A stretch of 64,000 bases of DNA from Mycolicibacterium confluentis (GTDB lineage Bacteria; Actinomycetota; Actinomycetes; Mycobacteriales; Mycobacteriaceae). The stretch is from assembly GCF_010729895.1 (NCBI RefSeq), contig NZ_AP022612.1, positions 1,674,001 through 1,738,000 of the forward strand, written 5' to 3'. The notes beneath the pieces were generated by a model. That model made no database searches, had not been told where the DNA came from, and saw only the letters and a list, made by a program, of their open reading frames with translations. A program made the translations under genes and the position numbers. Positions 1 to 46,400 of the stretch are shown piece after piece. Each line of letters opens with the position of its first letter. Position 1 is the stretch's first letter.

Positions 1-3000
1 AGCACGCCGGGCACAGCCACAGGTTGGCGTGCGGCTCACTGATACAGCGCTTACAGATATTGACGGCGCATGCGTCGCAGGCCACCGCTTTGTCGATACA
101 GACGGCACACGTCGTTCCGCCGCAATAGTTACAGGACGCAAAGCTGGTGCCGAAATGGCCTTCTCGGTCGATTGCACCTGAATCGAACAGGTAACCGGTG
201 CTGCCGTTCGCTCGGCGAGCCTCCGTCTGGCCGGCTGCAAGATTGCGTTCGTAGCGCCACTCGTGGCCGGTCTCCACGGTGACGAGTTGCTCGACGTGCG
301 CTCCGATCTCCAGCTGAGACCAAGCGACGGTCGGCTGGAATGCCTGGCTGAGATTGATGCGCAGTCGATCCGGGAGCTTCTCGAGCTGAGGAACGCGGAC
401 ACTCGTCGTTGGGTTCCATGCTATCTGCGCTTCACCCGAAAGGTCGGCACCACGGCGTGGTCTGTGGCTGATTGTGCCGACGGGTTCCACGGTCACGGAG
501 GACTGCACCGCGTTGGTCACGGTGGAGAGGCGTACTTGCCGCGGGTCGGTGAAGACGGTGACCGTGTCCGCGTCCGGAAGTCCCAACCAGCGAGCCAACG
601 CTGTTGCTGCCGGGGCACTCTCGGATCGGTTGACTGCGTACCAGGTGGTTTCACCGGCAACGCGGACACCGAGGGCCGTCATTGACGCGAGTTCGATGAT
701 TACTGCTTCCGCCGTCGGCGTGCCGTGACTTGCGGCATACGCCCGAACAGCCGGGACGGGCTCCCAGGCGTCGCGAACCCACTGTGGCGTCGTCGTTCCC
801 GCCGACCATTCGGCGGTGGAGTCTTGGGCGATCGAATGTGCGATGGTCGTCCTGTGCAGGCCTTGCGAGGAGATGCCGATGTCGTGACCGAAGCGTTCCC
901 AATAGAGGTCAAGGTTGACAGCCTGTGGCGTCGACATGCTCGCGAATTGACCTGCGAATCTCGGCGGAACGGTCGGCACCGGAGTAGGCAGTTGCCTCGG
1001 CGCCGGGAACTCCGATGCAACGACCGGGATCAGGTCACCGGCGGGTTCGTTGAATGATTGGGTTCCGGAACCAGACGCCTGCAACTGATCGACGGACCAA
1101 GCCGCACGGTACGAGCGGCCGGTGCTGACGATGAACCGTGAGCCGTCGACGGGCTGCTCGGGCTCGACGCCGCGAACCATGGGCGTCACTTGTGCTTCGA
1201 GGATGCCGCTCGCGGCCAACGCGAGTCGGTACGAAGCATCGATGTCGCTCCTGTCGAACACTTTCCAGACGGCCACCGAGTCGTTGCGGACGATCGCCTG
1301 TTCACAGGTATCGCCACGGTTGATGAGTACCACACTGGCATCCGCGTCGGATCCGATAAGGACTTCAGTGCCCGCCAACGCAAGAGACCTCGGAAGCGAT
1401 GCAAGTTGGGAATCAGTTGCGGCGGCCAGGTGCGCGCACGCAGGGCACGTGTCCTCGACGCGGCAGTTCGCGCACACCGTTCGTTCGCACGACGGGCATC
1501 GCGTGACTTCGGGGTTACGCCCGCAGCCGGTGCAGGATTTGTCAGCGCACAGTACGCAGGCCGTGGGGGACACGGTATGGCCGGCTGCCAGACAGCGACG
1601 GCAGACCGAGGCGGAGCAACCTGGGCAGTCTGAGAGCGCCTGCTGCTCGAGCTCATCGCAGGACGGGCATGCCCAGGAATGGCACGAGCCGCAGAGCGCA
1701 GCGGTGCCGCCCGGGTAGAAGTGGCCATCACGGCAGACGCCGAAGTCGGTGTCCGGCAGACCCAATGGGCTCTGTGGCCTACCATCGAAGGTCCGGTACA
1801 TGTGGACGGCGGTGCCATGCCCGCGCCAATTTTCCTTGACTTCCAGCCCGTTACGTAGCGACGCGGTGAAGCAGCGCTGTGCTCGGCTCAGCAGTGCGGC
1901 ACTCAACCCTGTCGGTAATGGGCGAGTCGTCCTTGCGATTGCGTGGTTCGGGCGGATGCCAAGCGCGGCCAATGACTCATCGTTGGCTGACTCCAACTCG
2001 AAACCGGACTCCAAGTCGACAGGTTCCGCGACGGTGCGAATCTCACGTTCAACAAGGGTGCACTCGCTCGGCGAAGGGAACGGCGCACCGATGCTGGTTA
2101 TTTCGTGGAGGCGCTTGCCGATTCTGCCGCCCGGCATTCTGAGCGAGTTGAGATAATCGAAGCCGGCGATTTGGAATGCAAGGTTCCTGCCGTCCGGGCA
2201 TGCGCTCCACGTATCGGCTTGTGTCTGCCCGTCCGTCGACACAGAGACGAGTACTGCCTCATTGCGACACTGCAGCGAAATCTGCGTCCCATCGATGACT
2301 GCGTGTCCGATTATTGGACTGTCTATGGCGGGGTTCGTCCATTGGATCGGCTCGAACTGGCGATCGGCAACGGAGATGCTGCCGTCATCCTCGACCATGG
2401 CCACCTCTTTGGCGAGACCGTCTGCCTCGAGGTAGACGTCCGTAAAGCTGGATCGACGGGTGACCATCAGCATGGGTGGGGCCGGGGGCGGTGCATCCGA
2501 TCGAAGCTTCTGTAGCAGCTTCCCTAAACTCATTGCGCGCTCTGGCTTTACATCCGCGTCGTCGAACTTCGGAATGTCGGCGATCGCGGCAGCATCGATG
2601 GCAGAGCCCGGAGCTGCTGCGATACTGAACTCTGTCTCGACTGTTGATGTCGAGCTGAGTCGTGCGCGGGTGCTGTCTTGTGCATCGCGACGCCCGGTCA
2701 GCCTGCGTAGCGTGACACCGGAGTCGAGCGGCAGTCCGTTCCGCACGGCGTATGACCGCATCTGTTTCCGGTTCGGGTCATCGATGTCCTCGTTACGAAC
2801 GATGGTGAGCGACTGTCCATTCGTCCGGCGCAGTTCGGCGACACGGTTGCCGACCAGCAGGGTGGTTCCGCCATGCAGGCGCCAGGCAACCGAGAATTCG
2901 CTGTCCAGCTCGGGTACCCGTTGCGGGAACGCACATCCGCGGCACAGTCCACCACCGGCAGAGCGGCAGGCGCCACAGCTCGCCAGCCCGCAGATCGGGC

Positions 3001-6000
3001 AGTCGGCGAACACGGCGTCCTCACCGCACGCGCCGCAAAGGACGTGATCGCAGGACTTGCAGTACTGTGTCTCCGATGCATTGATGCAGTGCGAGTCCGA
3101 GCACAAAGCCAAAACATTGATCGGGTCTCCGGACGCATCGCTTACGAAGAGCGGCGGTTCCCCATCTTCCCAGGGATAGGTCAGCACAGCTTCAGCGCCA
3201 TTGGGGCCGGCCCAGGTCTCCTCGACCAACCAGTCATCCTCATCGAGGGTGAGTGCAAGTATTTTCGCCCGAGCGCGGACGTCTGGAACTCGGCTGAGGC
3301 GCTTCTCTTCGGAGTCCAGCGCACGTTCCAACCTGACGCTGTCCTCGTAGGATGCTTCGTAGATCTGGGCGGTGTAGCCAGTGCGGATGCGTTGCAGCTC
3401 ATCGGCCTGGTCGGCTTCAACTTTCTCCGCAAGGTCGCGTCGTAGCTTCTCCAGCTGACCTGTCGCCGCCTTCTCGAACGCAGCGATGACCTCTGATGGT
3501 GTACCGAATGCCGCTGGAAGGGTTTCGCCGTCCCGTAGCGGTCTACGGGGGAGCCGGATTTGGTTGTGACCGTTCATGTCCGCGGTCAGCAGATGCTCCG
3601 TCGTTTCACTCTCTCCCACTGCAGCACGGAAGGTAGCCTGCCCACTCCACGATCCCGAGGGGACGAGACGCCGACGGAGCAGCGTCACATTGGAAGCTCG
3701 TTCGAGCGGGCTATCGCCGATGTCGTCGGGCACCACCGGCACGGTTGCGTGCATGTCGCCACGCATCCGGAGCAGTCCGAGGATCTCGTCGAAGACCGGT
3801 GACCCGACCGCACACAGTTCTGCATCCGGATGGTGCTCCATGCCGATGCGGTCGAACGCGAGGTGCATCAGCGTGCGGCCGTCGAGTTCCTGTTCGTACT
3901 CCTCGTCGAACTGCGCAGTGATGAACGCCCCATCGCCCTCTCCGGTGTCGTGCAGCAACTGCGCACCAAGGGCTTTGAGAACGTTTCGGGTCCAGGTCTG
4001 CACCCGCCGCTGCCGCATGCGCGCGCGCTCACTGACCTCGGGTGCCAGGTCAGTGGCTCCCGCCTTGGACAGACCTTTGCGATGCTCGAACGCCGAGGCC
4101 ATCCAGTCGCTCAGCCCACTGTCGGCAGCGATGAGCGTGGAGGCGCTCTCGCGGGCCTGGGCCAGCTCGGTGCCGAGTTGGCCCAGCAGGTTCTGCATCT
4201 TCTTGTCGTTGTCCGCGAAAAGTGCTTCGAGGATTCGAGTTTCGAAGCTGGCGGACTTCGAATCGTCGAGTTCACCGAGGATCGTGGTGACCTGCCCGAA
4301 CAACAGCTCGAACATCCGCAGCTTCTCGGCGAGCAACCGGTACACGCTCTCATCAATGGTGCCCTGCGCGTACAGGTTCGCGATGAACACCTCATCCTTG
4401 GGCTGGGTGAGGCGGTCGACGCGCCCGATTCGCTGCTCGATGCGCATCGGGTTCCAGGGCAGGTCGAAGTTGAGCACGCAGTTGCAGAACTGCAGGTTCT
4501 GGCCTTCGGCGCCCGCGTCGGTGGAGATCATCACCGGCGCCTCGCCCGACCGGAAGGCGGCGATCGTGGCGGCGCGTTCACCGGCAGACATCGATCCGTG
4601 GAACGAGCGTGCGTTGATCCCTTCAACTTCCATGCGGCGAAGGAGTCCGGTCACGGTGTCGGTGTGCTGGGTGAAGATCAGGACCCGGCCATGCTCCTTC
4701 AGCCACTTGTGCGTGATCTCGACAGCGGTGTTCTCGCGCGCGGAGTCGTTGATATCCATCGCGAGGTGGCCGACTTCGCTCAACACCGCGCGTACCTTTG
4801 GATCAGGATGCCTCTCGGCCATCCTGAGCGCGGTGGTGCCCATCGAGAACGGACTGGCCGTGAGCCGGAGTGCGAGGCTGCGTCGGCGCATGGTGTCACT
4901 GGAGTCCGTCATGACAGTGCGCAGCAGGTTCGTGCACAACGCGTAGAGCTCGCGCTCACGTGGCCCAAGAGTTACTGGTACGTCCACGGCGCGGCGGGTG
5001 ACGCGGTCGACGCCCGCCTGGGCGCGGGTTGTACGGATCATCGCGCTGCTGATCAGACGACGCAGTGCCGCAGGATCATTCGGTGTGCGTGGGTCGTATC
5101 CCCGCATGAATTGCCGCTTGAACTGCTGAACCGAGGTGAATGTACCCGGGCGCAGGAGCTCGACCAGTCGGTAGAGCTCCAGCAAGTCGTTCTGCACGGG
5201 GGTTGCGGTGAGGAACAGGGCATACCGACACGCGGTCGTCAGGGAAGTGATGAACTCGCGGGTTTTCCGGGCGCCGGCACCGGCAGCGCGGTGTGCTTCG
5301 TCGAGAATGACGATGTCCCAGGGTTCCTTGGTGAGCTTTGAAGCAGAATTGCGTCCGAGCTGCAGACTCATGATCAGCTTGTCCTGCTCCTGCACATCCG
5401 GACCGCGGAGGGCGACGTCGAAGTTCAGATCGAACTTCTGGTGCATCTCTTCTCGCCATTGCTCGCGCAGGGGGGCGGGGCACAGGATGAGCACACGTTT
5501 CGCCAAGCCCCGCAGGGTGAGTTCCTTGATCGCCAGGCCGGCTTCGATGGTCTTACCGAGGCCGACCTCATCGGCAAGCACAGCGCGCCCGCGCAGACGC
5601 GACAACGCATGTCGGGCGACCGCCTCCTGGTGCGGCATTCGGTCGACGTTGGCGACGTCGACGGCGAGTAGCTCTTCGAAGTCGTCGAGCGTGGCGAGTT
5701 CTTCGCCCTGGAGACGCAGCTCGACCAATTCGAGTTCGTCGAAACCGGCGGCCTTGAGTTGCTCACCGAGCAGGATCCGCGCATCCCTGAGGAAGCCGAT
5801 CCTTTTGCTGCTGTCGGCCGACCAGTCGTACTCGCTGTCGGCGTGGAACTGACGATCCACGGTTCGACGTCGCACAATCTTCGGCACTACGGATTTGCCT
5901 TCGCGCGGCGGGGTGACGGGTGGCTTCGGCGGGAGAGTGGTCAGTTGCGTCCCCGGAGGGAGCAGCGACAGGCGGTAGACACCGTCGACCAGGCGTAGGC

Positions 6001-6223
6001 GGAGCAGACCACCGTCTTGGCCGTAGTCCTGCAGCCGTTCGGTGAGGATGTCCCCGGTCAGCTGCCTGCTCTTGCCGCTCCATTGAGGGTGGAAGGTCTC
6101 ACCATCCAATTCGAGGGTGAGCGAGGTGCTGTGCGCGGGCAGTGTGAGTGCCTCACGTTCCCGTTCGGTGAGCGCAAGCTCCCCGGATTCCAGCAGCTGG
6201 TGGGTGATCCGCTTCTCAATCAT
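1..6223 (-). CDS. Giant SNF2/RapA-type helicase with repeated zinc-ribbon clusters (partial, C-terminus outside window)
   Basis: One uninterrupted minus-strand frame of at least 2074 codons runs from an ATG at 6223 off the left edge, so the C-terminus is missing. The helicase core is seen directly: Walker A ADEVGLGKT (residues 217-225), DEAH (308-311), TATPVQN just after, and motif VI QRIGRVDR (597-604). DEVGLGKT is typical of the RapA/DrmD branch of SNF2 proteins. After about residue 1000 come cysteine clusters at 1041-1097, 1497-1596 and from 2031 to the edge, built of CxxC knuckles such as CKSC, CGAC, CPIC and CRGC. Each of the first two is followed by a similar beta-rich stretch containing IVRNE or IVRND. 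The start overlaps the stop of the exonuclease-DinG-RecQ gene by 8 nt, so the two are probably co-translated. Known SNF2 proteins in defence islands remodel or translocate on DNA; a role in phage defence is inference. No catalytic nuclease motif was recognised in the visible part. Confidence 0.9.
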   Translation of the reverse strand, partial: MIEKRITHQLLESGELALTEREREALTLPAHSTSLTLELDGETFHPQWSGKSRQLTGDILTERLQDYGQDGGLLRLRLVDGVYRLSLLPPGTQLTTLPPKPPVTPPREGKSVVPKIVRRRTVDRQFHADSEYDWSADSSKRIGFLRDARILLGEQLKAAGFDELELVELRLQGEELATLDDFEELLAVDVANVDRMPHQEAVARHALSRLRGRAVLADEVGLGKTIEAGLAIKELTLRGLAKRVLILCPAPLREQWREEMHQKFDLNFDVALRGPDVQEQDKLIMSLQLGRNSASKLTKEPWDIVILDEAHRAAGAGARKTREFITSLTTACRYALFLTATPVQNDLLELYRLVELLRPGTFTSVQQFKRQFMRGYDPRTPNDPAALRRLISSAMIRTTRAQAGVDRVTRRAVDVPVTLGPRERELYALCTNLLRTVMTDSSDTMRRRSLALRLTASPFSMGTTALRMAERHPDPKVRAVLSEVGHLAMDINDSARENTAVEITHKWLKEHGRVLIFTQHTDTVTGLLRRMEVEGINARSFHGSMSAGERAATIAAFRSGEAPVMISTDAGAEGQNLQFCNCVLNFDLPWNPMRIEQRIGRVDRLTQPKDEVFIANLYAQGTIDESVYRLLAEKLRMFELLFGQVTTILGELDDSKSASFETRILEALFADNDKKMQNLLGQLGTELAQARESASTLIAADSGLSDWMASAFEHRKGLSKAGATDLAPEVSERARMRQRRVQTWTRNVLKALGAQLLHDTGEGDGAFITAQFDEEYEQELDGRTLMHLAFDRIGMEHHPDAELCAVGSPVFDEILGLLRMRGDMHATVPVVPDDIGDSPLERASNVTLLRRRLVPSGSWSGQATFRAAVGESETTEHLLTADMNGHNQIRLPRRPLRDGETLPAAFGTPSEVIAAFEKAATGQLEKLRRDLAEKVEADQADELQRIRTGYTAQIYEASYEDSVRLERALDSEEKRLSRVPDVRARAKILALTLDEDDWLVEETWAGPNGAEAVLTYPWEDGEPPLFVSDASGDPINVLALCSDSHCINASETQYCKSCDHVLCGACGEDAVFADCPICGLASCGACRSAGGGLCRGCAFPQRVPELDSEFSVAWRLHGGTTLLVGNRVAELRRTNGQSLTIVRNEDIDDPNRKQMRSYAVRNGLPLDSGVTLRRLTGRRDAQDSTRARLSSTSTVETEFSIAAAPGSAIDAAAIADIPKFDDADVKPERAMSLGKLLQKLRSDAPPPAPPMLMVTRRSSFTDVYLEADGLAKEVAMVEDDGSISVADRQFEPIQWTNPAIDSPIIGHAVIDGTQISLQCRNEAVLVSVSTDGQTQADTWSACPDGRNLAFQIAGFDYLNSLRMPGGRIGKRLHEITSIGAPFPSPSECTLVEREIRTVAEPVDLESGFELESANDESLAALGIRPNHAIARTTRPLPTGLSAALLSRAQRCFTASLRNGLEVKENWRGHGTAVHMYRTFDGRPQSPLGLPDTDFGVCRDGHFYPGGTAALCGSCHSWACPSCDELEQQALSDCPGCSASVCRRCLAAGHTVSPTACVLCADKSCTGCGRNPEVTRCPSCERTVCANCRVEDTCPACAHLAAATDSQLASLPRSLALAGTEVLIGSDADASVVLINRGDTCEQAIVRNDSVAVWKVFDRSDIDASYRLALAASGILEAQVTPMVRGVEPEQPVDGSRFIVSTGRSYRAAWSVDQLQASGSGTQSFNEPAGDLIPVVASEFPAPRQLPTPVPTVPPRFAGQFASMSTPQAVNLDLYWERFGHDIGISSQGLHRTTIAHSIAQDSTAEWSAGTTTPQWVRDAWEPVPAVRAYAASHGTPTAEAVIIELASMTALGVRVAGETTWYAVNRSESAPAATALARWLGLPDADTVTVFTDPRQVRLSTVTNAVQSSVTVEPVGTISHRPRRGADLSGEAQIAWNPTTSVRVPQLEKLPDRLRINLSQAFQPTVAWSQLEIGAHVEQLVTVETGHEWRYERNLAAGQTEARRANGSTGYLFDSGAIDREGHFGTSFASCNYCGGTTCAVCIDKAVACDACAVNICKRCISEPHANLWLCPAC

Positions 6224-9200
6224 CCTGTGTCACCGTGATTCCGAGTGTTTGGGCGCCGCGTGGGGTCAAGGCGAGACTTTGGTAGGGCGTGCGGGTGGAC
6301 TCCCGTTCCACGGTGCGCCGGTCGATGAAACCGTCGGCGAGAAGCTTGTCCACCGCCGCGTTCCACCGTTTCTCACCATTGCGCACATGGCGGAGAGCCC
6401 CGAACTGGGGGCAACTGAGGACACCCGCGCCGAGCGGTCTGCCCTCGCCGAGTGATTCGAGTCCGAGCACGGCGGCGCGTAGGCTGGCCTCACCGTAGGC
6501 ACCCCGCTTGAAGGCCGATGCCCACCCCACCGCCTGTAGGACGGTCAGTTCGGCGTTCACGAGCAGTTCCGGGTCCGGGACCATGTGGTCGGGTAGCGCC
6601 GCCCACGGTGGGGACTCGTCGTTGCAGCGGTCACACGTGACGATGTCCCGGCTCGCGCAGTCGGCGACGGTGTCACCGAAATGCTCGCCGATGGCGATCC
6701 GGCGACACGACGATGCCTGTTCGGCGTAGTCGATCATTGCCTGCAGGCGGCGTTGTTGCCACCGCTTCCACCGTGCGGACTCGCGTTCCAGTGCATGCTG
6801 CGGTGCGAGGCGGGAGAGCAAACGGACCCTGCGGAGCCGACGGGAGCTGGAGAACGTGACGAACCGGTCCAGCGACCAGTCGATCAGTTTCTGCTCCAGC
6901 TCATCTGGGTCGTATCCGCGTTCATCACGGAGCTGGTGGAAATCGATCTGGACGCGAACATTGGGGCGTGCGCGATTCGCCTTGTAGAACAACTCCCGGA
7001 ACAGGCGGCGTTCGTCCTCGTCGGTCGGTTCGCGGAACCCGACGTCCACCGTCCCGCGGGCCGAGCAGTCCAGTCCGAGTTTGAGCGCGCCGACCCGCTC
7101 GAGCTGGGCCAGGTGCACATTGACCTCGTCGTCGTCGATGCCGAGTTTGTCCGCCAACTCATCGACGTCGAATACTCGGCTGTCTCCGCGCTCGGGGCAT
7201 GTCCACAGCAGCGTCAGCAACTGCTGGGTGATCTGCGCGTCGGCCTTCGACTCGTGCGAATTGATCAACCGGCGACGTCGGGCGATATCGCCGCGGGTGT
7301 AGAAGAGCACGCAATCGCCGGTGACATCGGGAGCACGTGCGGCTCGGCCGGCTTCCTGGGCGTAACCGTCCAACGAGTCCGGGAGGTCGTAGTGGACCAC
7401 CCACGCGATGTTGGGTTTGTTGATACCCATGCCGAACGCTTTGGTGGCCACGATGATCCGGGTCGTATCGGAGTCAAAGTCTTCCTGGACGGCGTCGCGT
7501 TGTTCGGGGACCATGCCGGCGTGATAGGCGCGAGCAGCGTGCCCGGCGCGACGCAGCATTGCCGCGATCTCCTCGGCAAGTGCACGTTTGGTCACGTACA
7601 CGATGCCGGGCTTCTTCTCGGACCAGGTGACGAACCGGAGCAGCTCTCGGACCCTTTCCCGCTCGTCGACGCATCGATGGACACGGAAACGAAGGTTGGG
7701 GCGGTCGCTGGGCTCCCGCACGACGGCGGGGTCGAGCATGTCCATGGCCTCGACGATGTCGGTCTCCACTTCGGGCGTGGCCGTCGCGGTGAAACCGGCG
7801 CGGGGTGGACGGGTGTCGAAGGTTGCCACCGATGCGGGTACCTGCCGGAACTCCGGTCGGAAGTCGTGCCCCCACACCGAAACGCAGTGTGCCTCGTCGA
7901 CCACGACACGGTTGAGCTGCTGGCGCCCCAAAGCGCCGCGGAGCACCGGGTCTCGGGCCAACCGTTCCGGGGAGACATACAGCAACCGGACGTGGCCACT
8001 GGCGGTGTCGCGCAGGATGTCTGTCTGTACCACCCGCGATGTGGTGCCGGTGATGCCCTGGACCGGCCGGATGCCGCGCCGGCCGCGCAGGTCGTTGACC
8101 TGATCCTTGATGAGTGCGATGAGGGGCGACACGACAACGGTGGCGCGAGCCTGGGGCGCGAGCAGTGCGGGTAGCTGAAAGCACAGGGACTTGCCGAACC
8201 CGGTGGGCAGCACGGCCATGACGTCCTGGCCGTCGATGATCGCGCGCATCACTTCAAGCTGTTTGGGATGAAGGTTGGTGATGCCGAACAGCTTCTCGGC
8301 GGCTTCGATGAGTTTCGCGGTCGGGTCCTCACCTTCGACGAGCCGCAGGTTCTCCAGCAGTTGGCTGACGTCGTCTCGACCGAAGGAGATCGCCGCGCTG
8401 AGGTCAGGTGCTGTGCCGGTGACGAATTCGATGGCTGTCGTCCATGCGTCGTCGCGGTCGACGGCCTCATGGATCGCCGGTCCGGGCAGCGAGCCCAGGA
8501 GTACCCGCTGTGCCTGGGTGGGGGAGTGCAGCCGGCGGTCGCAGATCAGTGCGGCGCCGATGTCGGTTTCGGAGCGGATGAGCCGACCGAAGCCCTGGGT
8601 GAACTGCATGGCGGTCATCGGCAGGACGTACTCGAGGAACGGGTCGCCGCCGCGTTCGGCGATGGCGCGCTGGCGCGGAGAGACCAGTGGATCGTCGGGA
8701 TGCGGGTACGGGGGTTTCTCGATGAAGAGGTAGGACAGGGTTTCTCCGGGGGCGTCGAAGCCCTCCCAATACGATTTGAGCCCGTAGAGCACGGTGCCCG
8801 GTTCGGTATTGAACCGATGCGAGATCTGCGACCGGCCGTGTTCGCCCTGGACGAGAAGCTCGACGCCGCGTTCGGCGAGTTCGGCGGCTTTGGCGCGGAC
8901 TCCGTCGGCGACGATCTCCATCCGGGTCCGCGCGGCGAACAGGCTCAGCGCCTTCCCGCCGGACAGGCTGAGGAATCCGGCCTGATCGGCGGCCATCTCC
9001 TCGCAGAACTCGCGCTCGTTGACCGGGATGGGGATCGGTAAGTGGTTGGTGAGCACCACCTTCGACTGCTTTGCGTAGTCGAACGGTGACTGCAGCCTAA
9101 GGCCGCGGAAGCTGCCATCGGCTGGCGTGGGGTCGATCTCGATACCCAGGCGCGAGCTCAGGTAGTCGAAGCGCTGCTCGACGGTGAGGGTGGCCGAGCA

Positions 9201-11426
9201 CATCACCGTCGAGTGCATCCTGTCGACCACGAACTGCTGAAACTCCGGGAACACGTGGATGGGTAGCCGCTCATACGCCCAGGCGTCTGGATCGTCCTCT
9301 TCGGCGGCCAACCGGTATACCCAGCGGTGGCTGTCGGGCAGCGGCCCCAGTGTTTCGAGAATTGTGATGGCATTCTCGATCCGCTCGGCGTGCCCGTTGA
9401 GTCGGCGTTTCGCGGAACCGACGCCCTCGACGCCGCTCAGCGACTGACCGAGCGCGGACACTGCCTTCCCAAGTTGGATCAGGGCATAACGCAGCGTTGA
9501 CGCCGATTGACGCAGCACCCGAAATTCGGGGCGAGAGTTGACAATTCCGGACTGGAGGACGGCCGCGTGCGCCCGACCACCGTACTCATGAAGGTAGGTG
9601 GTGACGGCCTGGGTGAACTCGACGCCGGCCGCGCGGATTGCGTCGCAGCAGTTCGCCATGCTGTCAATGGCCTGTTTGACCTCGGTATTGCCGTTCGACC
9701 GCTTCCGGATGTCGCGCATCATCCGGGCACGGGGGCTCAGGGAGTTGACGACGATCTCGAGGTCGATGGCATCGACCCGGCCGGTCCACGCCGAGGTCAA
9801 GGAATCTTCGAGGGCATGTGCTTCGTCGAAGACGACGTCAGCCCGGCGGTCGCCGAGGAGATCACCCGGTGCCTGTGACGCGGTGACCCAGGCCGCCATC
9901 AGGGCGTGGTTCACCGACACCACCCCTGGTGTGGTGGTCAGTCCCTCGGTCTGCTGGACGACTGGGCAGATCTTGGCCCAGTTACAACCGGCGCGGTCGC
10001 AGCCCGCCGCGTTCGTCCTGAGGCGAGCGCGGGTGCGGGCATACCGGGCGTCCGAACGCTTGAGGACGTCGTCGGTGACGTCATCCCAGGTGCCGGTGGG
10101 GGACTCGGCGATCGCCCGAAAGGCGACCGCCAACGCGAGTCCTGAGGTCTCTTGATCGGCGACCGCGTCTTCGAGTTCCCGCGCGCAGACGTAGTTGGCG
10201 ACGCCCTGCAGTTGGCGGAACGGGGCGCCGAGGAGGTTCTCCTGCTGCAGTCGGGCCGCTTCGGCGCGCAGCTGTCCTTGAAGGGCTTTTGTCGCAGTCG
10301 CAATGATTACGGGCTGACGGGGCCGTGATGCACGGGCGAGTGCCGGCAGCATGTACGCCAACGACTTACCGGTTCCGGTGGGTGCCTCGACCGCGAGATT
10401 GCCACCTCGGTCGAAGACCTCGGCGACGGCGTGGGCCATTTCTTCCTGCGCGGGTCGTTTCCGGAGATTGCGCAGCTCGCGCAGGACCGGGAAGGTGTCC
10501 CGGGTGCCCGACCATGCATCGGAGGCCTTGGGGCCGGCCGGGTTCAGCAGCGGGTCGGGATCCCGGTGCAGCGTGGACAACTCGGGTGGGCCGGGCAGCG
10601 GTGGCAGCAGCAGCGCGAGCGGATTGCGGTGGGTTTCCAGGGTCGCGATGGCGAGTTGCCAGCTGGGTTGGGAAACGTCGACCTCGGCCAGGAGGGAGCG
10701 GATGACGGCGGCGGTCGCTGTGGCGTCCGAGTGGGCACGATGCGCCTCTTGGTTCGTGATGCCGTAGCGGAGCGTGAGGTCGGCGAGCTGCCGGTTGGGT
10801 AGCGCCACATCGACCAGAAGGGAAAGGTGCAGACTGTCGGCACTCGCCGGGAACTGGGGGACCGACAGTCCTTGACGCTTCGCGGCCTGCACAAGAAACG
10901 GCAGATCGAAGGCCAGCAGGTTGTGCCCGATCAGCAGATCGACACTCTGCAACCGGGCGGCCAGCGCGTCCAGGGCGTGGGACAGCGTCACAGCGTTGGC
11001 GCCGGCCTGGCCGTCCGGTACCGCCACCTCGACGCTCATCAGTTGCCTACCGTCTAGCCGGACCAAGGCGATCTCGGTGACAAAATCGGTGGCCTTGTTG
11101 AGGCCGGTGGTCTCGATATCCAGCACCGCCACCCGGTCGAGCGGAATGCGGTCAGGCTGCGGGTCGTACCAGGGTCCGTCGGTGGGGTTGGGGTCGGTGA
11201 CCGGTTGACTCTTGTACGCGACCGCCACGTGGAGGAGCCCGTCGTCGGTGACGGCAAAGCGGTGGGGGAACCGATCCGGCCACTGCTGCAGCCGCTCCAG
11301 GGTTTGGGCGAAACCCTCCTTGCGGAGCTGTTCTCTGAGTTCGGGTGCCGACAGCGGGCCGTGTTCGAGCAGCAGACGATGCGCCGTCTCGGCGGCCGGC
11401 GGCATGGGGCGGTCGGGTGTGCTCAT
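6216..11426 (-). CDS. DnaQ-type exonuclease - DinG/XPD helicase - RecQ helicase triple fusion
   Basis: The 1736-aa product carries three enzymes in one chain. Residues about 95-250 are a DEDDh 3'-5' exonuclease: LDIETTGLN with D103 and E105, D174 in HNLLAFDL, and H229-x4-D234. Residues about 310-1000 are a DinG/XPD-like helicase with Walker A APTGTGKS near 348-355, four cysteines fitting an XPD 4Fe-4S cluster (C414, C476, C481, C487) and DEAH at 534-537. From about 1050 there is a RecQ helicase: LPTGFGKSLCFQLP, DEAHCVSVWGHDFRPEF, AFGMGINKPN, GYAQEAGRAARA, and a RecQ-type zinc site CRRIAIGEHF...C..C near 1570-1595. DinG with an N-terminal exonuclease is known from Firmicutes; adding a full RecQ is unusual. 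It would act on DNA forks, R-loops or phage replication intermediates (inference). The stop overlaps the SNF2 gene start. Its promoter should lie in the divergent region 11427-11764. Confidence 0.93.
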   Translation of the reverse strand: MSTPDRPMPPAAETAHRLLLEHGPLSAPELREQLRKEGFAQTLERLQQWPDRFPHRFAVTDDGLLHVAVAYKSQPVTDPNPTDGPWYDPQPDRIPLDRVAVLDIETTGLNKATDFVTEIALVRLDGRQLMSVEVAVPDGQAGANAVTLSHALDALAARLQSVDLLIGHNLLAFDLPFLVQAAKRQGLSVPQFPASADSLHLSLLVDVALPNRQLADLTLRYGITNQEAHRAHSDATATAAVIRSLLAEVDVSQPSWQLAIATLETHRNPLALLLPPLPGPPELSTLHRDPDPLLNPAGPKASDAWSGTRDTFPVLRELRNLRKRPAQEEMAHAVAEVFDRGGNLAVEAPTGTGKSLAYMLPALARASRPRQPVIIATATKALQGQLRAEAARLQQENLLGAPFRQLQGVANYVCARELEDAVADQETSGLALAVAFRAIAESPTGTWDDVTDDVLKRSDARYARTRARLRTNAAGCDRAGCNWAKICPVVQQTEGLTTTPGVVSVNHALMAAWVTASQAPGDLLGDRRADVVFDEAHALEDSLTSAWTGRVDAIDLEIVVNSLSPRARMMRDIRKRSNGNTEVKQAIDSMANCCDAIRAAGVEFTQAVTTYLHEYGGRAHAAVLQSGIVNSRPEFRVLRQSASTLRYALIQLGKAVSALGQSLSGVEGVGSAKRRLNGHAERIENAITILETLGPLPDSHRWVYRLAAEEDDPDAWAYERLPIHVFPEFQQFVVDRMHSTVMCSATLTVEQRFDYLSSRLGIEIDPTPADGSFRGLRLQSPFDYAKQSKVVLTNHLPIPIPVNEREFCEEMAADQAGFLSLSGGKALSLFAARTRMEIVADGVRAKAAELAERGVELLVQGEHGRSQISHRFNTEPGTVLYGLKSYWEGFDAPGETLSYLFIEKPPYPHPDDPLVSPRQRAIAERGGDPFLEYVLPMTAMQFTQGFGRLIRSETDIGAALICDRRLHSPTQAQRVLLGSLPGPAIHEAVDRDDAWTTAIEFVTGTAPDLSAAISFGRDDVSQLLENLRLVEGEDPTAKLIEAAEKLFGITNLHPKQLEVMRAIIDGQDVMAVLPTGFGKSLCFQLPALLAPQARATVVVSPLIALIKDQVNDLRGRRGIRPVQGITGTTSRVVQTDILRDTASGHVRLLYVSPERLARDPVLRGALGRQQLNRVVVDEAHCVSVWGHDFRPEFRQVPASVATFDTRPPRAGFTATATPEVETDIVEAMDMLDPAVVREPSDRPNLRFRVHRCVDERERVRELLRFVTWSEKKPGIVYVTKRALAEEIAAMLRRAGHAARAYHAGMVPEQRDAVQEDFDSDTTRIIVATKAFGMGINKPNIAWVVHYDLPDSLDGYAQEAGRAARAPDVTGDCVLFYTRGDIARRRRLINSHESKADAQITQQLLTLLWTCPERGDSRVFDVDELADKLGIDDDEVNVHLAQLERVGALKLGLDCSARGTVDVGFREPTDEDERRLFRELFYKANRARPNVRVQIDFHQLRDERGYDPDELEQKLIDWSLDRFVTFSSSRRLRRVRLLSRLAPQHALERESARWKRWQQRRLQAMIDYAEQASSCRRIAIGEHFGDTVADCASRDIVTCDRCNDESPPWAALPDHMVPDPELLVNAELTVLQAVGWASAFKRGAYGEASLRAAVLGLESLGEGRPLGAGVLSCPQFGALRHVRNGEKRWNAAVDKLLADGFIDRRTVERESTRTPYQSLALTPRGAQTLGITVTQDD

Positions 11427-11734: not shown

Positions 11735-11757
11735 TTGTCACATAGCCGCGTTAGTCT
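11735..11757 (+). promoter_or_regulatory. Promoter of the PLD-helicase gene, partly RecA-NDp/PafBC-like
   Basis: TTGTCACAT, exactly 8 nt, then TAGTCT, followed by 7 nt and a GTG start at 11765. The established mycobacterial damage promoter is TTGTCRGTG-N8-TANNNT. The first six bases, the spacing and the -10 box match; GTG is replaced by CAT. The distance from -10 to GTG predicts a leaderless transcript. Confidence 0.5.
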
Positions 11758-11764
11758 CACCCGC

Positions 11765-14700
11765 GTGGAAACCGGACTGTATGAGTCAGTACTCACGACG
11801 CAACTCCGCTCAGCGCTCGCCGCAAGTTCGGGCGTACGCAGTGAGCTGAGCACAGTCGATGAGGCGGATCAGGCGCTGGTCCTCGCCCGTCATCTCAGCC
11901 CGCTCATCGAGAGGCAGCTGCGGGCCGCGCGGGGTGCGGAAGAGCGAGCGGGGCTCACCCGGAAGATTCTGGAGGCTCTCGGCGATCCCGAGCTACTCGA
12001 CCATGAGCCATACCAGGACGAGCCGACGAAGATTCGACGGTTGGACGCCGTCACGGCTGACGCACTGGGTTCGGTTCGGCCACCGCGTCCGGCCACACCG
12101 CTGTCGGATGCCGCACTCATGACCAACGCGCGCAACGAACCAACACTCGCCGCCGAGCTGCGCGCAGAGTTGGCCAGCGCCGACCAGGTTGACCTGCTGT
12201 GTGCCTTCGTGAAGTGGCACGGACTTCGTCTCCTGGAGCGCGAGCTCACCGAACTGCGCGAGCGCGGAGTCCCGTTGCGTGTCATCACCACGACCTACAT
12301 CGGTGCTACTGATGCAAAGGCCCTAGACAGGCTCGTCGAGGAATTCGGCGCCGAGGTCCGCGTCAACTACGACACCAACATGACCAGGCTGCACGCGAAG
12401 GCGTGGCTCTTGCGGCGTAACACCGGGTTCCACACCGCCTACGTTGGCTCATCCAACCTGTCGCAGTCAGCGTTGGTGGATGGCTTGGAATGGAACGTGC
12501 GACTGTCGGCGATCGCAACGCCGCACCTGTTGGATAAGTTCCGCGCGACCTTCGATTCCTACTGGGAGAACCGCGAGTTCGAGAGGTACCGGCCCGCAGA
12601 GGACGGGGCGAGGCTGCGCAACGCACTGGAAATCGCATCGGGGAAGAAGCAGCGCGACCCGTTGGCGATCACGCTGTCCGGTTTGGAGGTCACGGCCAAG
12701 CCGTACCAAGCCGAGCTGTTGGAGCAGCTCGACGCCGAACGAACGCTGCATAACCGTCACCGCAACCTCATAGTTGCGGCCACCGGCACGGGCAAGACCG
12801 TTATTGCCGCGCTGGACTATCGCCAGCTGGCCCGCGAGGTGCACGGGCGGGACCTGAAGCTGCTGTTTGTCGCACACCGCAAGGAGATCCTGACCCAGGC
12901 ACGCCGGATGTATCAGGAGGTTCTCACCGATCCTACCTTTGGCGAGTTGCTCGTCGGTGGAGACCAACCAACGCAATGGCGTCACGTCTTTGCCAGCATC
13001 CAATCGCTGACGGATGGACGCCTTTCCACAATTGAACCCGATCATTTCGACGTCGTTGTGATCGACGAGTTCCACCATGCTGAGGCGCCGTCTTATCGCC
13101 GTCTCCTTGACCACATCGCACCTATGGAACTGTTGGGGCTGACCGCCACGCCCGAGCGCGGCGACGGCACCGATGTGCGCGCGTTCTTCGGTGGGCGCGT
13201 CGCCGCGGAGTTGAGGCTGTGGGACGCGTTGGAACAGAACCTGTTGTGCCCGTTCCACTACTTCGGGGTGTACGACGGCACCGACCTAGAGAAGCTGGCT
13301 TGGCGTCGCGGCGGGTACGACCTCGCCCGGCTGAGCGAGGTGTACACCGCCGACGATGCCCGCACCCGGATCGTGCTCGATCAGCTTCGGGACAAGATCA
13401 CCGATGTCGGATCGATGCGGGCGCTCGGGTTCTGTGTCAGCGTCGAGCACGCCAGGTACATGGCGGAGAAGTTTGTCGCTGCCGGTATCCCGGCGCGCGC
13501 CGTTGTCGGTCTCGACGACAGTGCCGATCGTCGAGAAGCACTGGAGGCCTTGCGTAGCCGCGACATCAACGTGCTGTTCACTGTGGACCTCTTTAACGAG
13601 GGTCTGGACATTCCCATGGTGGACACCGTGCTGTTTCTGCGGCCCACCGAGAGTGCGACGGTGTTCCTGCAACAGCTGGGGCGCGGACTGCGGCTGGCGC
13701 CGGGCAAGTCGGTGCTGACGGCGTTGGACTTCGTCGGCCATCAACGCAAGGAATTCCGGTTCGATCAGCGATTCCGGGCATTGACAGGATTGGGGCGAAA
13801 GCAGCTGGAAAAGGAGATTGAGCACGGGTTCCCGTTCCTGCCGTCGGGCAGTCAAATTGTGCTCGATCCGGTCGCGCAGAAGTTGGTGTTGGAGAACGTG
13901 CGTCAGCAGATTTCGCCGAAGAGAACGGCGCTGATCTCCGAAGTGCGGGCGCATCCCAACGATCAGTTGGCCTCGTATCTGGAGGAGTCCGGGCGCGGTA
14001 TCGAAGACATTCTGCGCACCGACCGGTCGTGGACGACGCTGTGCCGCGCTGCCGGCAAGTTGGGGGAGCAGCCCGATCCTCGGGAGTCTGAACTGCTAAA
14101 GCGAGTCAAGGCGCTCGCACATGTCGATGACCGTCGTCGGGCGGAGGCCTATCGGGCGCTGCTCGCCGGCAGCGCTGTTACCGAGCAGCGGCTGGCGGAC
14201 ATGCTGTTCTATTCGCTGTACCCGAACGGTGGGGGATTCGACACTCCCGCAGCGGGACTCGAAGCACTGCGTGGGGAATCGGTAGCGGTGGAGATGCGCC
14301 AAGTCGTGGATATTGCGTTCGAAGCCGCGCACCGCAGCACGTATGCGCTCGGGGGCTTGGTGCCCGAATTGGGCGATGTGCCGTTGGCTCTGCACGCCAC
14401 ATACTCACGCGAAGAAATCCTCGCCGGCCTCGGCTGGGTGTCGGACAAGCGGACGCCGTCGACCATGCGGGAGGGGGTGGCCTGGTGTGCGGCGGCCAAT
14501 GCCGATGCCTTCCTCATCACGCTGAAGAAGTCAGACACCGACTATTCGCCGACCACCATGTATCGCGACTTCGCGCTCAGCGCGGACTTGTTCCACTGGG
14601 AATCGCAGTCGACGACCACCTCGGCATCACCGACCGGGCAGCGGTACATCAATCACCGCGAGCGGGGCTCGCACGTTCTGCTGTTCGTGCGGGAGATGAA

Positions 14701-14851
14701 GACCAACGCGCTCGGTGCGGCGCCGTATATCTTCCTCGGGCCCGCCGACTACGTCTCTCACGAGGGGGAGCGGCCGATGGCGATCACGTGGCGGTTGAGG
14801 CGGGCTATGCCGGCGGAGGTGTATCTGGGGGCGCGGGCGGCTGTGGCGTGA
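11765..14851 (+). CDS. PLD-domain/DEAD helicase with C-terminal DUF3427
   Basis: From the GTG at 11765 the product is about 1028 aa. A phospholipase-D-like nuclease domain lies near residues 130-280, with LHAKAWLLRR and GSSNLSQSAL giving the single HxK...SSN half-site. An SF2 helicase follows, with Walker A AATGTGKTVIAAL near 337 and DEFHHAEAP near 433 replacing DEAD, and the C-terminal motif QQLGRGLR near 640. The last third matches DUF3427. The family is widespread as a stand-alone restriction-like or repair helicase; one PLD half-site usually means the nuclease works as a dimer. The start was chosen because GTG sits 7 nt after a -10 box, giving a leaderless message; a TTG at 11735 lies inside the promoter and is less likely. 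It is transcribed away from the exonuclease-DinG-RecQ gene and lies about 330 bp upstream of the BREX operon. Confidence 0.9.
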   Translation: METGLYESVLTTQLRSALAASSGVRSELSTVDEADQALVLARHLSPLIERQLRAARGAEERAGLTRKILEALGDPELLDHEPYQDEPTKIRRLDAVTADALGSVRPPRPATPLSDAALMTNARNEPTLAAELRAELASADQVDLLCAFVKWHGLRLLERELTELRERGVPLRVITTTYIGATDAKALDRLVEEFGAEVRVNYDTNMTRLHAKAWLLRRNTGFHTAYVGSSNLSQSALVDGLEWNVRLSAIATPHLLDKFRATFDSYWENREFERYRPAEDGARLRNALEIASGKKQRDPLAITLSGLEVTAKPYQAELLEQLDAERTLHNRHRNLIVAATGTGKTVIAALDYRQLAREVHGRDLKLLFVAHRKEILTQARRMYQEVLTDPTFGELLVGGDQPTQWRHVFASIQSLTDGRLSTIEPDHFDVVVIDEFHHAEAPSYRRLLDHIAPMELLGLTATPERGDGTDVRAFFGGRVAAELRLWDALEQNLLCPFHYFGVYDGTDLEKLAWRRGGYDLARLSEVYTADDARTRIVLDQLRDKITDVGSMRALGFCVSVEHARYMAEKFVAAGIPARAVVGLDDSADRREALEALRSRDINVLFTVDLFNEGLDIPMVDTVLFLRPTESATVFLQQLGRGLRLAPGKSVLTALDFVGHQRKEFRFDQRFRALTGLGRKQLEKEIEHGFPFLPSGSQIVLDPVAQKLVLENVRQQISPKRTALISEVRAHPNDQLASYLEESGRGIEDILRTDRSWTTLCRAAGKLGEQPDPRESELLKRVKALAHVDDRRRAEAYRALLAGSAVTEQRLADMLFYSLYPNGGGFDTPAAGLEALRGESVAVEMRQVVDIAFEAAHRSTYALGGLVPELGDVPLALHATYSREEILAGLGWVSDKRTPSTMREGVAWCAAANADAFLITLKKSDTDYSPTTMYRDFALSADLFHWESQSTTTSASPTGQRYINHRERGSHVLLFVREMKTNALGAAPYIFLGPADYVSHEGERPMAITWRLRRAMPAEVYLGARAAVA

Positions 14852-15453: not shown

Positions 15454-16056
15454 ATGATGACAGCGACTCAGCGATACGCACTTTCGTTCACCAGCGGTTC
15501 GCTGCTGACCCAAGAAGCCCTCATCGCTGTACCGATCTACCTTGGCGAACGTGATTGGGCCACGACCCGCGCACGGATCAAAGACGAAAATCTACTTCAG
15601 GCCCGTGTGGAGCGATCAAACACCCGCACGCTGGGTGCGCTCATACCGCGGCTGCAAGTGCTCACCGACGCCGAGCTCCAGATCATCGCAGACGGAACAT
15701 CTACCGAGCGCGGCCACCTGATGTGGGCTGCAGCGTGCCGGCAGTACGACCTGATTGGGGAGTTCGCCGAAGAAGTGTTGCGTGAACGGTTCCTCACCCT
15801 GGCGGGCACGGTGACCTATGAGGAGTTCGACTCCTTCTACCGCAGTAAGGCCATATGGCACGACGAACTAAACACGATCACGGACACCTCGTTCAAGAAG
15901 ATCCGGCAGGTGGTGTTCAAGATGATGGTTGATGCGGGTCTGCTAACCAAGCAGGACTTGATCGAACCAACGTCGCTTTCGGCGCGCGTCGCCGGCTGCC
16001 TCAACCGCCGCACCCCCAGCGATGTCCGATTTTTTCCGACGAAGACGGCGTTGTGA
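15454..16056 (+). CDS. brxA: BrxA, DUF1819 inner-core BREX protein
   Basis: The 200-aa protein begins MMTATQRYALSFTSGSL, the typical opening of DUF1819/BrxA, and contains the family patterns YLGERDW near residue 31 and QRFF-like KIRQVVFKMM near 150. BrxA is a small DNA-binding, NusB-fold-like protein needed in many BREX type 1 systems. The ATG at 15454 is preceded by a strong GGAGGGGG Shine-Dalgarno; the longer upstream frame is not supported. Its stop overlaps the GTG start of brxB by 4 nt. The usual BrxA length is about 200 aa, so it looks intact. Confidence 0.92.
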   Translation: MMTATQRYALSFTSGSLLTQEALIAVPIYLGERDWATTRARIKDENLLQARVERSNTRTLGALIPRLQVLTDAELQIIADGTSTERGHLMWAAACRQYDLIGEFAEEVLRERFLTLAGTVTYEEFDSFYRSKAIWHDELNTITDTSFKKIRQVVFKMMVDAGLLTKQDLIEPTSLSARVAGCLNRRTPSDVRFFPTKTAL

Positions 16057-16664
16057 CAATGTCAAACCGGGTCACCCTGGCGCAGCACGAGGAGCACCTC
16101 TTCGAGGTTCTCAAGAGCCAGCGCTTCCTCAAGATGCAGGGCCTCGGCAATGAGGTCGCCCACTTCATCTATGACTACGACCCAACCTGGGCTCTTGACG
16201 TCGCGCAGGCGAAGAAGCGCATCAAGACCAAGCTCGAAACCGAAGAGGGCATAAAGGTTTTCGAGATCAACCTTTATGACCTCTGCGTCGAACTTCTGAA
16301 GGAACGCAACGTCTGGGATCGCGTCCTCGCGGCCGAGGAATCAATGGACAAGCCCGACTTCCTCAAGATGCTCCAGAACATGCTCGACCCCCAGATGCAC
16401 CTTGCGCCGGCCATCAAAGCACGCATCAACAGCGAGACATTCCACATCTTGTTCCTCACCGGGGTTGGAGAGGTCTTTCCGTTCGTGCGCTCGCACACCG
16501 TGCTCAACAACTTGCAGACCGTCGTCTCTGACCGGCCGATGCTGATGTTCTTCCCTGGCAAGTACGACGTGTCGGCCACTCAGGGTTCGGCGCTCGTTCT
16601 GTTTGGCCAACTCAAGGACGACTCCTTCTACCGCGCCAAGCGCATCCTCGACCAGGAAGCATGA
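16053..16664 (+). CDS. brxB: BrxB, DUF1788 BREX protein
   Basis: The 203-aa product matches DUF1788: an N-terminal hydrophilic region with ALDVAQAKKRIKTKLE, and a C-terminal core with FLTGVGEVFPFVRSHTVLNNL and MLMFFPGKYD, the family hallmark. BrxB is an essential BREX component of unknown biochemistry. The GTG at 16053 overlaps the brxA stop; an ATG two codons later (16059) is an equally possible start. It ends 4 nt before brxC. Length is normal for the family. Confidence 0.92.
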   Translation: MTMSNRVTLAQHEEHLFEVLKSQRFLKMQGLGNEVAHFIYDYDPTWALDVAQAKKRIKTKLETEEGIKVFEINLYDLCVELLKERNVWDRVLAAEESMDKPDFLKMLQNMLDPQMHLAPAIKARINSETFHILFLTGVGEVFPFVRSHTVLNNLQTVVSDRPMLMFFPGKYDVSATQGSALVLFGQLKDDSFYRAKRILDQEA

Positions 16665-16668
16665 CTCG

Positions 16669-19600: not shown

Positions 19601-20139
19601 CGGGCAACCTCGACTTCCTTCCAGAAGGTAGCGCCGACAATGTCAAGACGCTACTCGCAGACCCGAATGCCTTCCGTGGCAACAAAATGAACCAACTCAA
19701 GGCAGCAACGGACGCCCTCAAAAGCCTGCTTGACGACCAAGTAACTGGTGCTCGCACGGCGGTAAAAAGTGCTGTCGAGACCAAGCTTGAAAGTCTGCTG
19801 CAGGAACACTTTTTTAAGGCCGCATCGGCAGACGCCCAAACCGCGGCAGTCGACACAGTGAATACGCTTCTGTCGACGCTCGACAGCCAGAATCTCATCG
19901 CCGTCGTTCACCAAGCGGGTAGCCAGTTCGAATCCACCACCTATCCGGGACTGATCGACCAACTCACCAAATCCGCCGACACCGGCGGCAAGCCCCAAAA
20001 GCCAACGGTCGCCGTCGCCAGCATCAAGGCGCCGGCAGGCCCCGCCATTATCGAAACCGAGTCTGACGTTGACGCCTACCTCGCCGCACTGAGGGTCGCT
20101 CTTGTGCAGGCAATCAAAGAGAACCGGATCGCGAACTGA
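16669..20139 (+). CDS. brxC: BrxC, large P-loop ATPase of BREX
   Basis: The 1156-aa protein opens with MKLNEIFLKDVNRSIEGVVK, the conserved BrxC/PglY start, and has Walker A GFFGSGKSHLLK near residue 65 and a Walker B-like FFIDEVGQF near 260. The long C-terminal half is largely helical. BrxC is an AAA-type ATPase, related to ORC/Cdc6-like ATPases, that works with PglX and PglZ to block phage replication. Length and domain order are normal. The ATG at 16669 lies 4 nt after the brxB stop; a frame extending upstream overlaps brxB and is unlikely. The stop TGA shares one base with the pglX ATG (TGATG). Confidence 0.95.
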   Translation: MKLNEIFLKDVNRSIEGVVKADDVDHLGVEVEEYVFTNDAAKGVGPLLEEYTNYTNANGVWISGFFGSGKSHLLKMLAHLLGDVEGQAFPRRKVSDSFLNKTDDAMLTASLKKAATIPAKSLLFNIDQKATLIAKDQTDALLKVFVKVFDESRGYFGNDGAIARFEEDLDKRGQYEAFKTTFQKHAGIDWAQGREQTFLEAHHIDTAFAEINGGANPGIIEQYQKSYAVSIEDFATSVKAWIDLQEPGYRLNFFIDEVGQFIADDGKLKLNLQTIAESLNTKCKGQSWVFVTSQEDMDKVVGDRTREQGHDFSKIQARFSTKVKLTSQDVEEVISKRLLEKNDAGAAEVKAIYAKDSANFKTIFDFVDGAKTYRNYVDENRFVSTYPFVTYQIPMFQAALEGLSDHNMLEGRNSSVGERSMLGVVQDVAKLIGGQQVGYLATFDQMFAGISAALKSAAQSAILQAEKHLPDPTSDVTILANRLLKALFLVKYVDTFKATPRNLTVLVYDRFGLDLKSLGDMVQQALNLLETQSYVQRNGNIYEYLTNEEQEIEKEIKGVDIDSSEISNKLFKYLSSDILKSNKMKYAKNGQDFTFGYKLDDIVQGNQRELTVHFITPETSYTDDEIKMQSAGKDELRVFLGRDKRLLADLRLFVKTEKYTKQRTNSGATPSMLAILQSKQLVNADREKELIERLRQAVGDAQMIINASEVTSSAQEALARVSDGFQDLVSRTYTSLGLLGGKAFSEQQVAGAVQNDQGLFGVENLSTLTSPGAEMESWIISQTNLGEQVTVKKIVGRFESKPYGWNLGSIEVVLGWLVGTGKIALSIDATPVVRTEVAALIRNTAKQQHTVAAPQKAYDATKVAAFKKFCTEFFDEGAVPSDPAELARFGKDKLAAKREELNALVSASRYPFVRQLAAVVALLDQVTGKPVDWYLAEFNTADELIEAKVDTIDPIKAFLKGQQAKIFDEAVGLLTANAGNLDFLPEGSADNVKTLLADPNAFRGNKMNQLKAATDALKSLLDDQVTGARTAVKSAVETKLESLLQEHFFKAASADAQTAAVDTVNTLLSTLDSQNLIAVVHQAGSQFESTTYPGLIDQLTKSADTGGKPQKPTVAVASIKAPAGPAIIETESDVDAYLAALRVALVQAIKENRIAN

Positions 20140-26142: not shown

Positions 26143-26154
26143 CGGGTGACGACT

Positions 26155-46211: not shown

Positions 46212-46400
46212 CAGAAACCTCCCGGTCCATCCGGGCCTCCACACGGAGGCGCTCTTACCGGCACCGGCTGGTGCGGGTCACTTCGTCATCCGAGCCACCC
46301 ACGAGCGTGGGGTTGGCGCGCCATCCAGTCGGAGCTTGTCGACGGCGTCTCGTGAAGCTCAGTCAGGGTAACCCACGAGGCGGACAAGCGCCGGTTCTCC

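Follow-up and report, generated by a model that had tools for sequence, protein, structure and literature searches.

A two-gene helicase module of Mycolicibacterium confluentis, with an exonuclease-DinG-RecQ fusion and an SNF2 protein with exchangeable cassettes, as a candidate mobile defence system

The window considered here is a 64,000-nucleotide stretch of the Mycolicibacterium confluentis genome (assembly GCF_010729895.1, contig NZ_AP022612.1, positions 1,674,001 to 1,738,000), which opens with two overlapping minus-strand genes, one encoding an exonuclease-DinG-RecQ fusion protein and the other a giant SNF2 helicase provided with zinc clusters. We consider it rather probable that the two genes form a single mobile defence module directed against invading DNA, in which the SNF2 protein would serve as a sensor and translocase and the fusion helicase as the effector, with an optional exonuclease. 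This reading takes into account the architecture and linkage of the pair, its joint transfer in phylogenetic trees, its defence neighbourhood, the conservation of its motors, the loss of its exonuclease and the exchange of cassettes in the SNF2 protein. As far as PADLOC, NCBIfam and the literature were searched, no name was found for the pair and the module is undescribed, in agreement with an initial annotation to which no named defence system of this composition was known.

Architecture, conservation and linkage of the two genes

The fusion gene (6216..11426, minus strand, ORF (open reading frame) list) is complete in frame from an ATG start and encodes 1,736 aa. The protein begins with a DEDDh exonuclease domain (residues 96-250, 10677..11141, minus strand; Pfam RNase_T and residue check) in which all five DEDDh residues, D103, E105, D174, H229 and D234, are intact. 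The DinG-type helicase that follows (residues 316-990, 8457..10481, minus strand; Pfam DEAD and Helicase_C_2, NCBIfam, residue check) contains Walker A, DEAH and four FeS-type cysteines, C414, C476, C481 and C487, with what we take to be the spacing of the DinG FeS site. Next comes a RecQ helicase core with an aromatic-rich loop (residues 1036-1410, 7197..8321, minus strand; Pfam DEAD and Helicase_C, NCBIfam), prolonged by a region (residues 1411-1610, 6597..7196, minus strand) with the RecQ zinc-binding cysteines C1574, C1590, C1598 and C1601 (Pfam RecQ_Zn_bind). By sequence, the nearest solved structures are RecQ-family helicases and, for the middle part, DinG. The protein belongs to the RecQ subfamily TIGR00614 (370 bits versus a cut-off of 219.8, best stretch residues 1044-1413). 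Orthology to housekeeping RecQ was rejected (TIGR01389, 384.7 bits, below the cut-off of 640.2), as was equivalence to DinG or YoaA (PRK11747, 279.6 versus 598; YoaA, 334.2 versus 680; TIGR01407, 254.4 versus 547.7).

The SNF2 gene (2..6223, minus strand; ORF list and neighbouring sequence) remains in frame up to the window edge with 2,074 of its 2,145 codons, the remainder lying to the left; the whole gene (G000:C1:1673786-1680223, 2,145 aa) ends 214 nt beyond that edge. It overlaps the fusion gene by 8 nt (6216..6223, minus strand), and both frames, the triple fusion, the overlap and the zinc-ribbon character of the SNF2 protein are as initially annotated. The RapA-like SNF2 motor (residues 191-660, 4244..5653, minus strand) was assigned by Pfam and by a structure search by sequence, in which the nearest solved structures are those of RapA. 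The protein is not a RapA equivalog (PRK04914, 195.1 bits, below the cut-off of 576).

Relatives were collected as protein clusters, the best 120 of 222 and the best 120 of 159 matches being retained for the two proteins. Both reading frames of the pair are conserved along their length in many relatives, beyond what chance would produce. The ATPase residues of DinG and RecQ and the FeS residues are kept in 118-120 of the 120 fusion relatives, and Walker A, DEAH and motif VI of both motors, together with the DinG cysteines and the aromatic-loop and zinc residues of RecQ, in 117-120 of them. Walker A and DEAH of the SNF2 motor occur in all 108 rows covering these residues. Of the recognised domains of the fusion, conservation is lowest in the exonuclease (mean identity 0.60 versus 0.73 for DinG and 0.84 for RecQ, over 83 rows), whose full five-residue set is present in 79 of the 120 relatives. 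Of the 41 with an incomplete set, 20 are rows of Micromonosporaceae type (P0099-P0118), 18 are scattered and carry substitutions, and in 3 sequence is missing. Since these 41 relatives lack the full catalytic set, the exonuclease cannot be an essential step everywhere, and its repeated loss suggests that unwinding, or another nuclease, may be enough.

The two genes occur together. In a sample of 148 genomes of the genus, for which the listing of non-matching genomes is incomplete, the fusion is matched at E<=1e-100 in 16 genomes and the SNF2 protein in the identical 16. Similarly, in another set of 148 relatives, of which 88 belong to the genus, the full-length fusion occurs in 10 genomes and as fragments in an eleventh. 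All 11 also carry the long SNF2 protein, either intact or fragmented, and four further genomes possess only SNF2 helicases of 37-38% identity, with short frames. Across the class, the fusion was detected in 3 of 393 genomes, all of its own genus. Among named genomes, 12 of the 14 loci returned hold the whole fusion and the SNF2 gene follows directly downstream in 12/12, one of these contigs (L035) ending inside the SNF2 gene and another locus (L045) showing a shorter SNF2 match that contains a stop. The coupling of the two genes read in the initial annotation is thus borne out. By a same-contig proxy, 51 of the 119 listed fusion clusters with a stated contig share the exact size of their longest contig with an SNF2 cluster, including clusters of Micromonospora and Planosporangium.

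The distances of the fusion and SNF2 proteins are strongly correlated (Pearson 0.989 over 52 protein pairs; Spearman 0.86 in a 39-pair mycobacterial-type subset, with 0 of 1000 permutations as high), a correlation to which host phylogeny contributes. In the tree of the fusion, Gordonia polyisoprenivorans is nested with M. alvei, M. peregrinum and M. dioxanotrophicus (four-row clade, 100/100), and in the tree of the SNF2 motor it stands beside M. alvei (100/99). From this nesting of Gordonia among mycobacterial copies in both trees, the pair appears to travel between bacteria as a unit. In five genomes taken for comparison, the pair has a lower G+C content than any control region sampled from its own genome.

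Altered forms of the pair were also encountered. In G045 (G045:C1:2386283-2397731) both genes persist as decayed fragments. In G532 (L107), some 2.5 kb with an opposite-strand 285-aa ORF (G532:C1:564405-566979) separate the fusion from the SNF2 gene, which is devoid of its first ~55 residues. In G087 (L052; G087:C1:1366365-1381385), an insert of ~15 kb breaks the SNF2 gene near its DEAH motif; it carries genes for a Phage_integrase of the tyrosine type and an rve-domain protein, together with an Eco57I-type methylase and a protein that matches ResIII weakly. Finally, 12 of the 120 SNF2-family clusters (P0208-P0211, P0213, P0215-P0218, P0221, P0223 and P0224) are without at least 390 N-terminal residues and keep much of the zinc/beta array, a group that may include broken genes, truncations at contig ends and stand-alone forms.

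Exchange of cassettes in the C-terminal array

The C-terminal part of the SNF2 protein is organized in the order Zn1-D1-D2-Zn2-D3-D4-Zn3-tail, in which D1 to D4 are beta-rich domains. Zinc cluster 1 (5 CxxC, residues 1047-1100, 2924..3085) is followed by cassette 1, made of D1 and D2 (residues 1105-1485, 1769..2911), zinc cluster 2 (9 CxxC, residues 1500-1600, 1424..1726), cassette 2, made of D3 and D4 (residues 1612-2003, 215..1390), and zinc cluster 3 (5 CxxC, residues 2020-2074 within the window, 2..166), all on the minus strand. The 38 cysteines of these 19 CxxC motifs are nearly invariant across relatives. The three clusters are mutual repeats (hhalign 96-98%); by the same method D2 is related to D4 (94%), and D1 possibly to D3 (44%). 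The structure predicted for D3-D4 reaches a pLDDT of 95.7, and its comparison with solved structures gave no clear match. The mean identity of the motor is 85% versus 37-47% for the D domains (99 rows).

The two cassettes are exchanged among close relatives, as revealed by the silent change at four-fold sites compared between motor and cassettes in pairs of genomes. Between G027 and G532, whose SNF2 motors are 99% identical, 63 of 449 silent sites differ in the motor, 77 of 122 in cassette 1 (p 8e-26) and 24 of 212 in cassette 2, and no comparable step occurs in the fusion gene; the corresponding NG86 dS values are 0.17 for the motor, 2.9 for D1 and 1.8 for D2. In the pair formed by P0122, a protein of M. 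parafortuitum, and P0123, the difference lies in cassette 2, with identities of 99% for the motor, 89% for cassette 1 and 52% for cassette 2. Between the window and G532, cassette 2 is likewise raised (82/146 versus 159/435 in the motor, p 4e-5) and cassette 1 is not; between the window and G027, both cassettes have diverged more than the motor at silent sites. The edges of the exchanges are located within or beside the zinc clusters. Cassette exchange was not seen in the silent-site comparison of G344 with G564, and the asymmetry is found in only some of the 16 protein pairs with a motor identity of at least 95%. Judging from these alignments, recombination swaps the two cassettes independently of each other. 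Because each of 13 carriers possesses a single array copy per genome, the cassettes would come from other strains and not from a silent store.

A fast-changing, recombining array joined to a conserved motor lends itself to being read as a recognition arm, and the sensing part of the module is probably this exchangeable array, which does not appear in the initial annotation. The classic parallel is HsdS, in which two recognition domains located between conserved spacers are independently exchanged. It is an analogy only: the cassettes of the pair belong to an SNF2 protein, with zinc clusters on either side, and no HsdS target-recognition family occurs among the Pfam hits at E<=0.01, so that the likeness is one of behaviour.

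Defence neighbourhoods of the pair

Neighbouring genes were checked at 14 of the 16 carrier loci, the other two lying outside the scan (G043, on a 7.6-kb contig, and G045, gene-called, with its decayed genes). Defence genes occur within ~20 kb at 14/14 loci, as PADLOC hits or by BLAST to PADLOC-typed proteins. BREX is found in G000 (the genome of the window) and G564 according to PADLOC, in G344 through genes 82-97% identical to those of G564, and in G565 by BLAST to the BREX proteins of the window (24-45%); as these are just 4 of 14 carriers, the pair is not a constant BREX component, a result that concerns carriers of the pair, BREX loci without it not having been surveyed. Sets of the DISARM-like type bearing DrmA accompany the pair in G020, G067, G087 and G016. 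Depending on the carrier, other neighbours consist of Hma (G027), PsyrTA (G006), a PLD helicase with an SbcC/Lamassu-like protein (G034), PDC-S68 with a DrmD/BrxHI-like helicase (G042), DrmMI-like and DpdE-like genes (G531), or a PLD helicase, an SNF2 relative and an MTES_1575-REase helicase (G532).

With BREX or DISARM-like genes nearby in 8 of 14 carriers, and an SNF2 motor of the RapA/DrmD/BrxH/HmaA kind, the pair could be regarded as accessory to BREX, to DISARM or to some other system based on methylation, and as working only with it. We hold this to be unlikely, considering the Hma, PsyrTA, Lamassu/SbcC-like and PDC-S68 neighbours of four other carriers, and the 10 loci compared, where no gene other than the pair is common to more than a few.

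Searched against PADLOC at E<=1e-30, 87 flank genes (of 98 within 10 kb, 11 genes of G045 being omitted for size) matched 129 families, versus 27 for 114 genes from other regions, a coarse comparison which counts families instead of genes in a library with many models per family, some of housekeeping type. A seeded shuffle with a residue limit served to pick the control genes among the 216 genes of at least 250 aa in twenty hand-chosen 20-kb regions. The 25 flank families listed comprise DrmA, matched by 4 genes, DNA methyltransferases, by up to 4, mREase_IV and TmtA, by 3 each, and PD-T4-6 kinase models, by 2, and the 25 listed for the control, with one gene each, include PD-T4-6 kinase models, dGTPase, WYL, mad3, mad6, MzaA, the C3a189 kinase, RT_UG29, PDC-S48 and a DnaG-like model. 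At this resolution, defence families are more numerous beside the pair than in the control regions.

The relatives of RecQ and DinG are mostly housekeeping proteins. In addition, the exonuclease-DinG protein of B. subtilis is reported to act at stressed forks and R-loops (PMC12525004). The pair may therefore be envisaged as serving DNA repair or the response to replication stress, at forks and R-loops, and as merely placed in variable islands. We regard this reading as the least probable of the explanations considered: the pair is present in just 16 of 148 genus genomes, the trees place a transfer to Gordonia, defence genes are found beside it more than beside control regions, and its C-terminal array is fast-evolving and exchanged. 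Its restricted occurrence shows that it is not housekeeping. Of the two observations that would have spoken against the initial annotation, a fixed housekeeping context and, in the libraries and papers searched, a match to a named system, neither was made.

In the window, the pair is separated from BREX by a divergent upstream gene, not part of the pair (11735..14851, plus strand), which encodes a PLD-ResIII-DUF3427 protein (Pfam; PADLOC mREase_IV, a match to a type IV methyl-directed restriction enzyme with E=0) and has relatives at the same divergent position in G027, G034 and G532. The BREX set identified by PADLOC (BrxA, BrxB, BrxC, PglX, PglZ and BrxL; 15454..28293, plus strand) takes its BrxA start from the gene call, the longest ORF starting at 14485. 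The location next to BREX given in the initial annotation therefore holds as to the presence of the set, but not as to immediate adjacency or fixed partnership. A Mutator-family transposase gene lies downstream of the SNF2 gene.

Several further genes of these loci deserve mention. The DISARM-like set recurring near the pair at L050, L061, L053 and L059 comprises DrmA, a GajB/UvrD-like protein and a C5 methyltransferase in 4/4 cases, with DrmB and a ~1,570-aa TmtA-like protein each seen in 3/4. Beyond the SNF2 gene of G531, two genes (L108:3449-12812, plus strand) encode a protein of 1,780 aa, for which a weak match to DUF445 is the only one and PADLOC gave none, and a protein of 1,301 aa, with no Pfam hit. 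Beside the BREX set of the window, a 2,109-aa protein (29188-35517, plus strand) containing HEPN_Swt1, DUF4011, AAA helicase and REase_MTES_1575 domains is a candidate defence protein. Elsewhere in the window, a SAM-IV riboswitch (46246-46357, minus strand; 74.6 bits) occurs directly upstream of the minus-strand ORF 44751-46244.

Known systems and proposed mode of action

None of the NCBIfam defence equivalogs listed (for the fusion, the best 25 of 44 families) reaches its cut-off. Part-matches of the pair in PADLOC include the DrmD, BrxH, HmaA, DpdE, DpdF, PsyrT and type IV DinG models (the best 25 of 48 and of 32). The main texts of two surveys, one on BREX-related systems from 2026 (PMC12839542) and one on YprA helicases from 2025 (PMC12458937), mention neither RecQ nor DinG. 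Dpd resembles the pair in associating SNF2 (DpdE) and RecQ-like (DpdF) helicases in a defence context, with strong local matches. Identity with Dpd was rejected (DpdE, 193.4 bits versus a cut-off of 500; DpdF, 211.8 versus 550; no search by name was aimed at the 7-deazaguanine genes of Dpd), and the Dpd proteins are not known to carry a DinG or an exonuclease part. Like DrmD and ArmA, the SNF2 protein is a RapA-like helicase, which in DISARM and ARMADA belongs to a multi-helicase defence set. It is nevertheless not the DrmD of DISARM (NCBIfam, 241.3 and 238 bits versus cut-offs of 610 and 950); the pair of the window lies near BREX, and DISARM-like genes lie near it in four other carriers. The partners in ARMADA are reported to be YprA-like, PglX-like and GajB-like proteins (PMC12458937), and the BrxHII-type helicases to have a Tudor domain at the N-terminus and two alpha+beta domains at the C-terminus (PMC12839542). 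The exonuclease-DinG proteins (TIGR01407, B. subtilis DinG) likewise begin with a DEDD exonuclease joined to a DinG helicase, but the fusion described here differs by the RecQ part behind it, the FeS-type cysteines and the SNF2 partner. RecBCD and AdnAB unite two motors and a nuclease in one machine, with opposite polarities in RecBCD; the resemblance is an analogy only, taking into account their SF1 motors versus the SF2 motors of the pair.

In the defence module proposed here, the SNF2 protein would be a RapA-like double-strand translocase whose C-terminal arm, diversified by the swapping of its two cassettes between strains, recognizes the invader or one of its products. Recognition would lead it to remodel the DNA, or to mark it, and to load the fusion. 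In characterised relatives, RecQ moves 3'-5' and DinG 5'-3', and because of these opposite polarities the unwinding of a duplex by both motors would be their simplest use: they would run in the same direction on the two strands of one duplex, in a RecBCD-like manner, and unwind the invader. The DEDDh exonuclease, where still active, would degrade one strand; a 3'-5' exonuclease activity of such a domain is reported for B. subtilis DinG (PMC12525004). The initial proposal that the pair senses and unwinds or degrades invading DNA is therefore retained with regard to the linked unit and its defence contexts, and weakened with regard to degradation, as the full exonuclease set is missing in 41/120 relatives.

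Helicase-nuclease modules are able to destroy plasmids, as exemplified by DdmDE and by DinG in type IV CRISPR, and an anti-plasmid or anti-conjugation system, unwinding and destroying incoming plasmid instead of phage DNA, would be compatible with the finding that no plasmid record matched the pair at strict limits. Such an absence is weak evidence, and phage and plasmid targets are not separable by these data; we attribute to this explanation a low probability, comparable to that of the accessory module.

More tentatively, and with doubts that outweigh our confidence, the module may represent a new immune machine, in which an SNF2 combinatorial receptor, with two cassettes of a fold not clearly matched in the structures searched and reshuffled between strains by recombination at zinc-cluster spacers, would command a single-chain, dual-polarity DinG and RecQ helicase whose unwinding would destroy or disrupt the invader DNA, with the exonuclease as an option. 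Helicase-rich systems such as BREX, DISARM, Dpd, Druantia and ARMADA are common, and the way they distinguish invader from self is largely open. In this respect, SNF2 proteins closely related to one another but unlike in a recognition-like cassette offer a natural experiment: if it is true that the alleles change the target, what an SNF2-type defence helicase recognizes would become directly testable. The module would also provide a dual-polarity helicase built from SF2 motors in a single chain.
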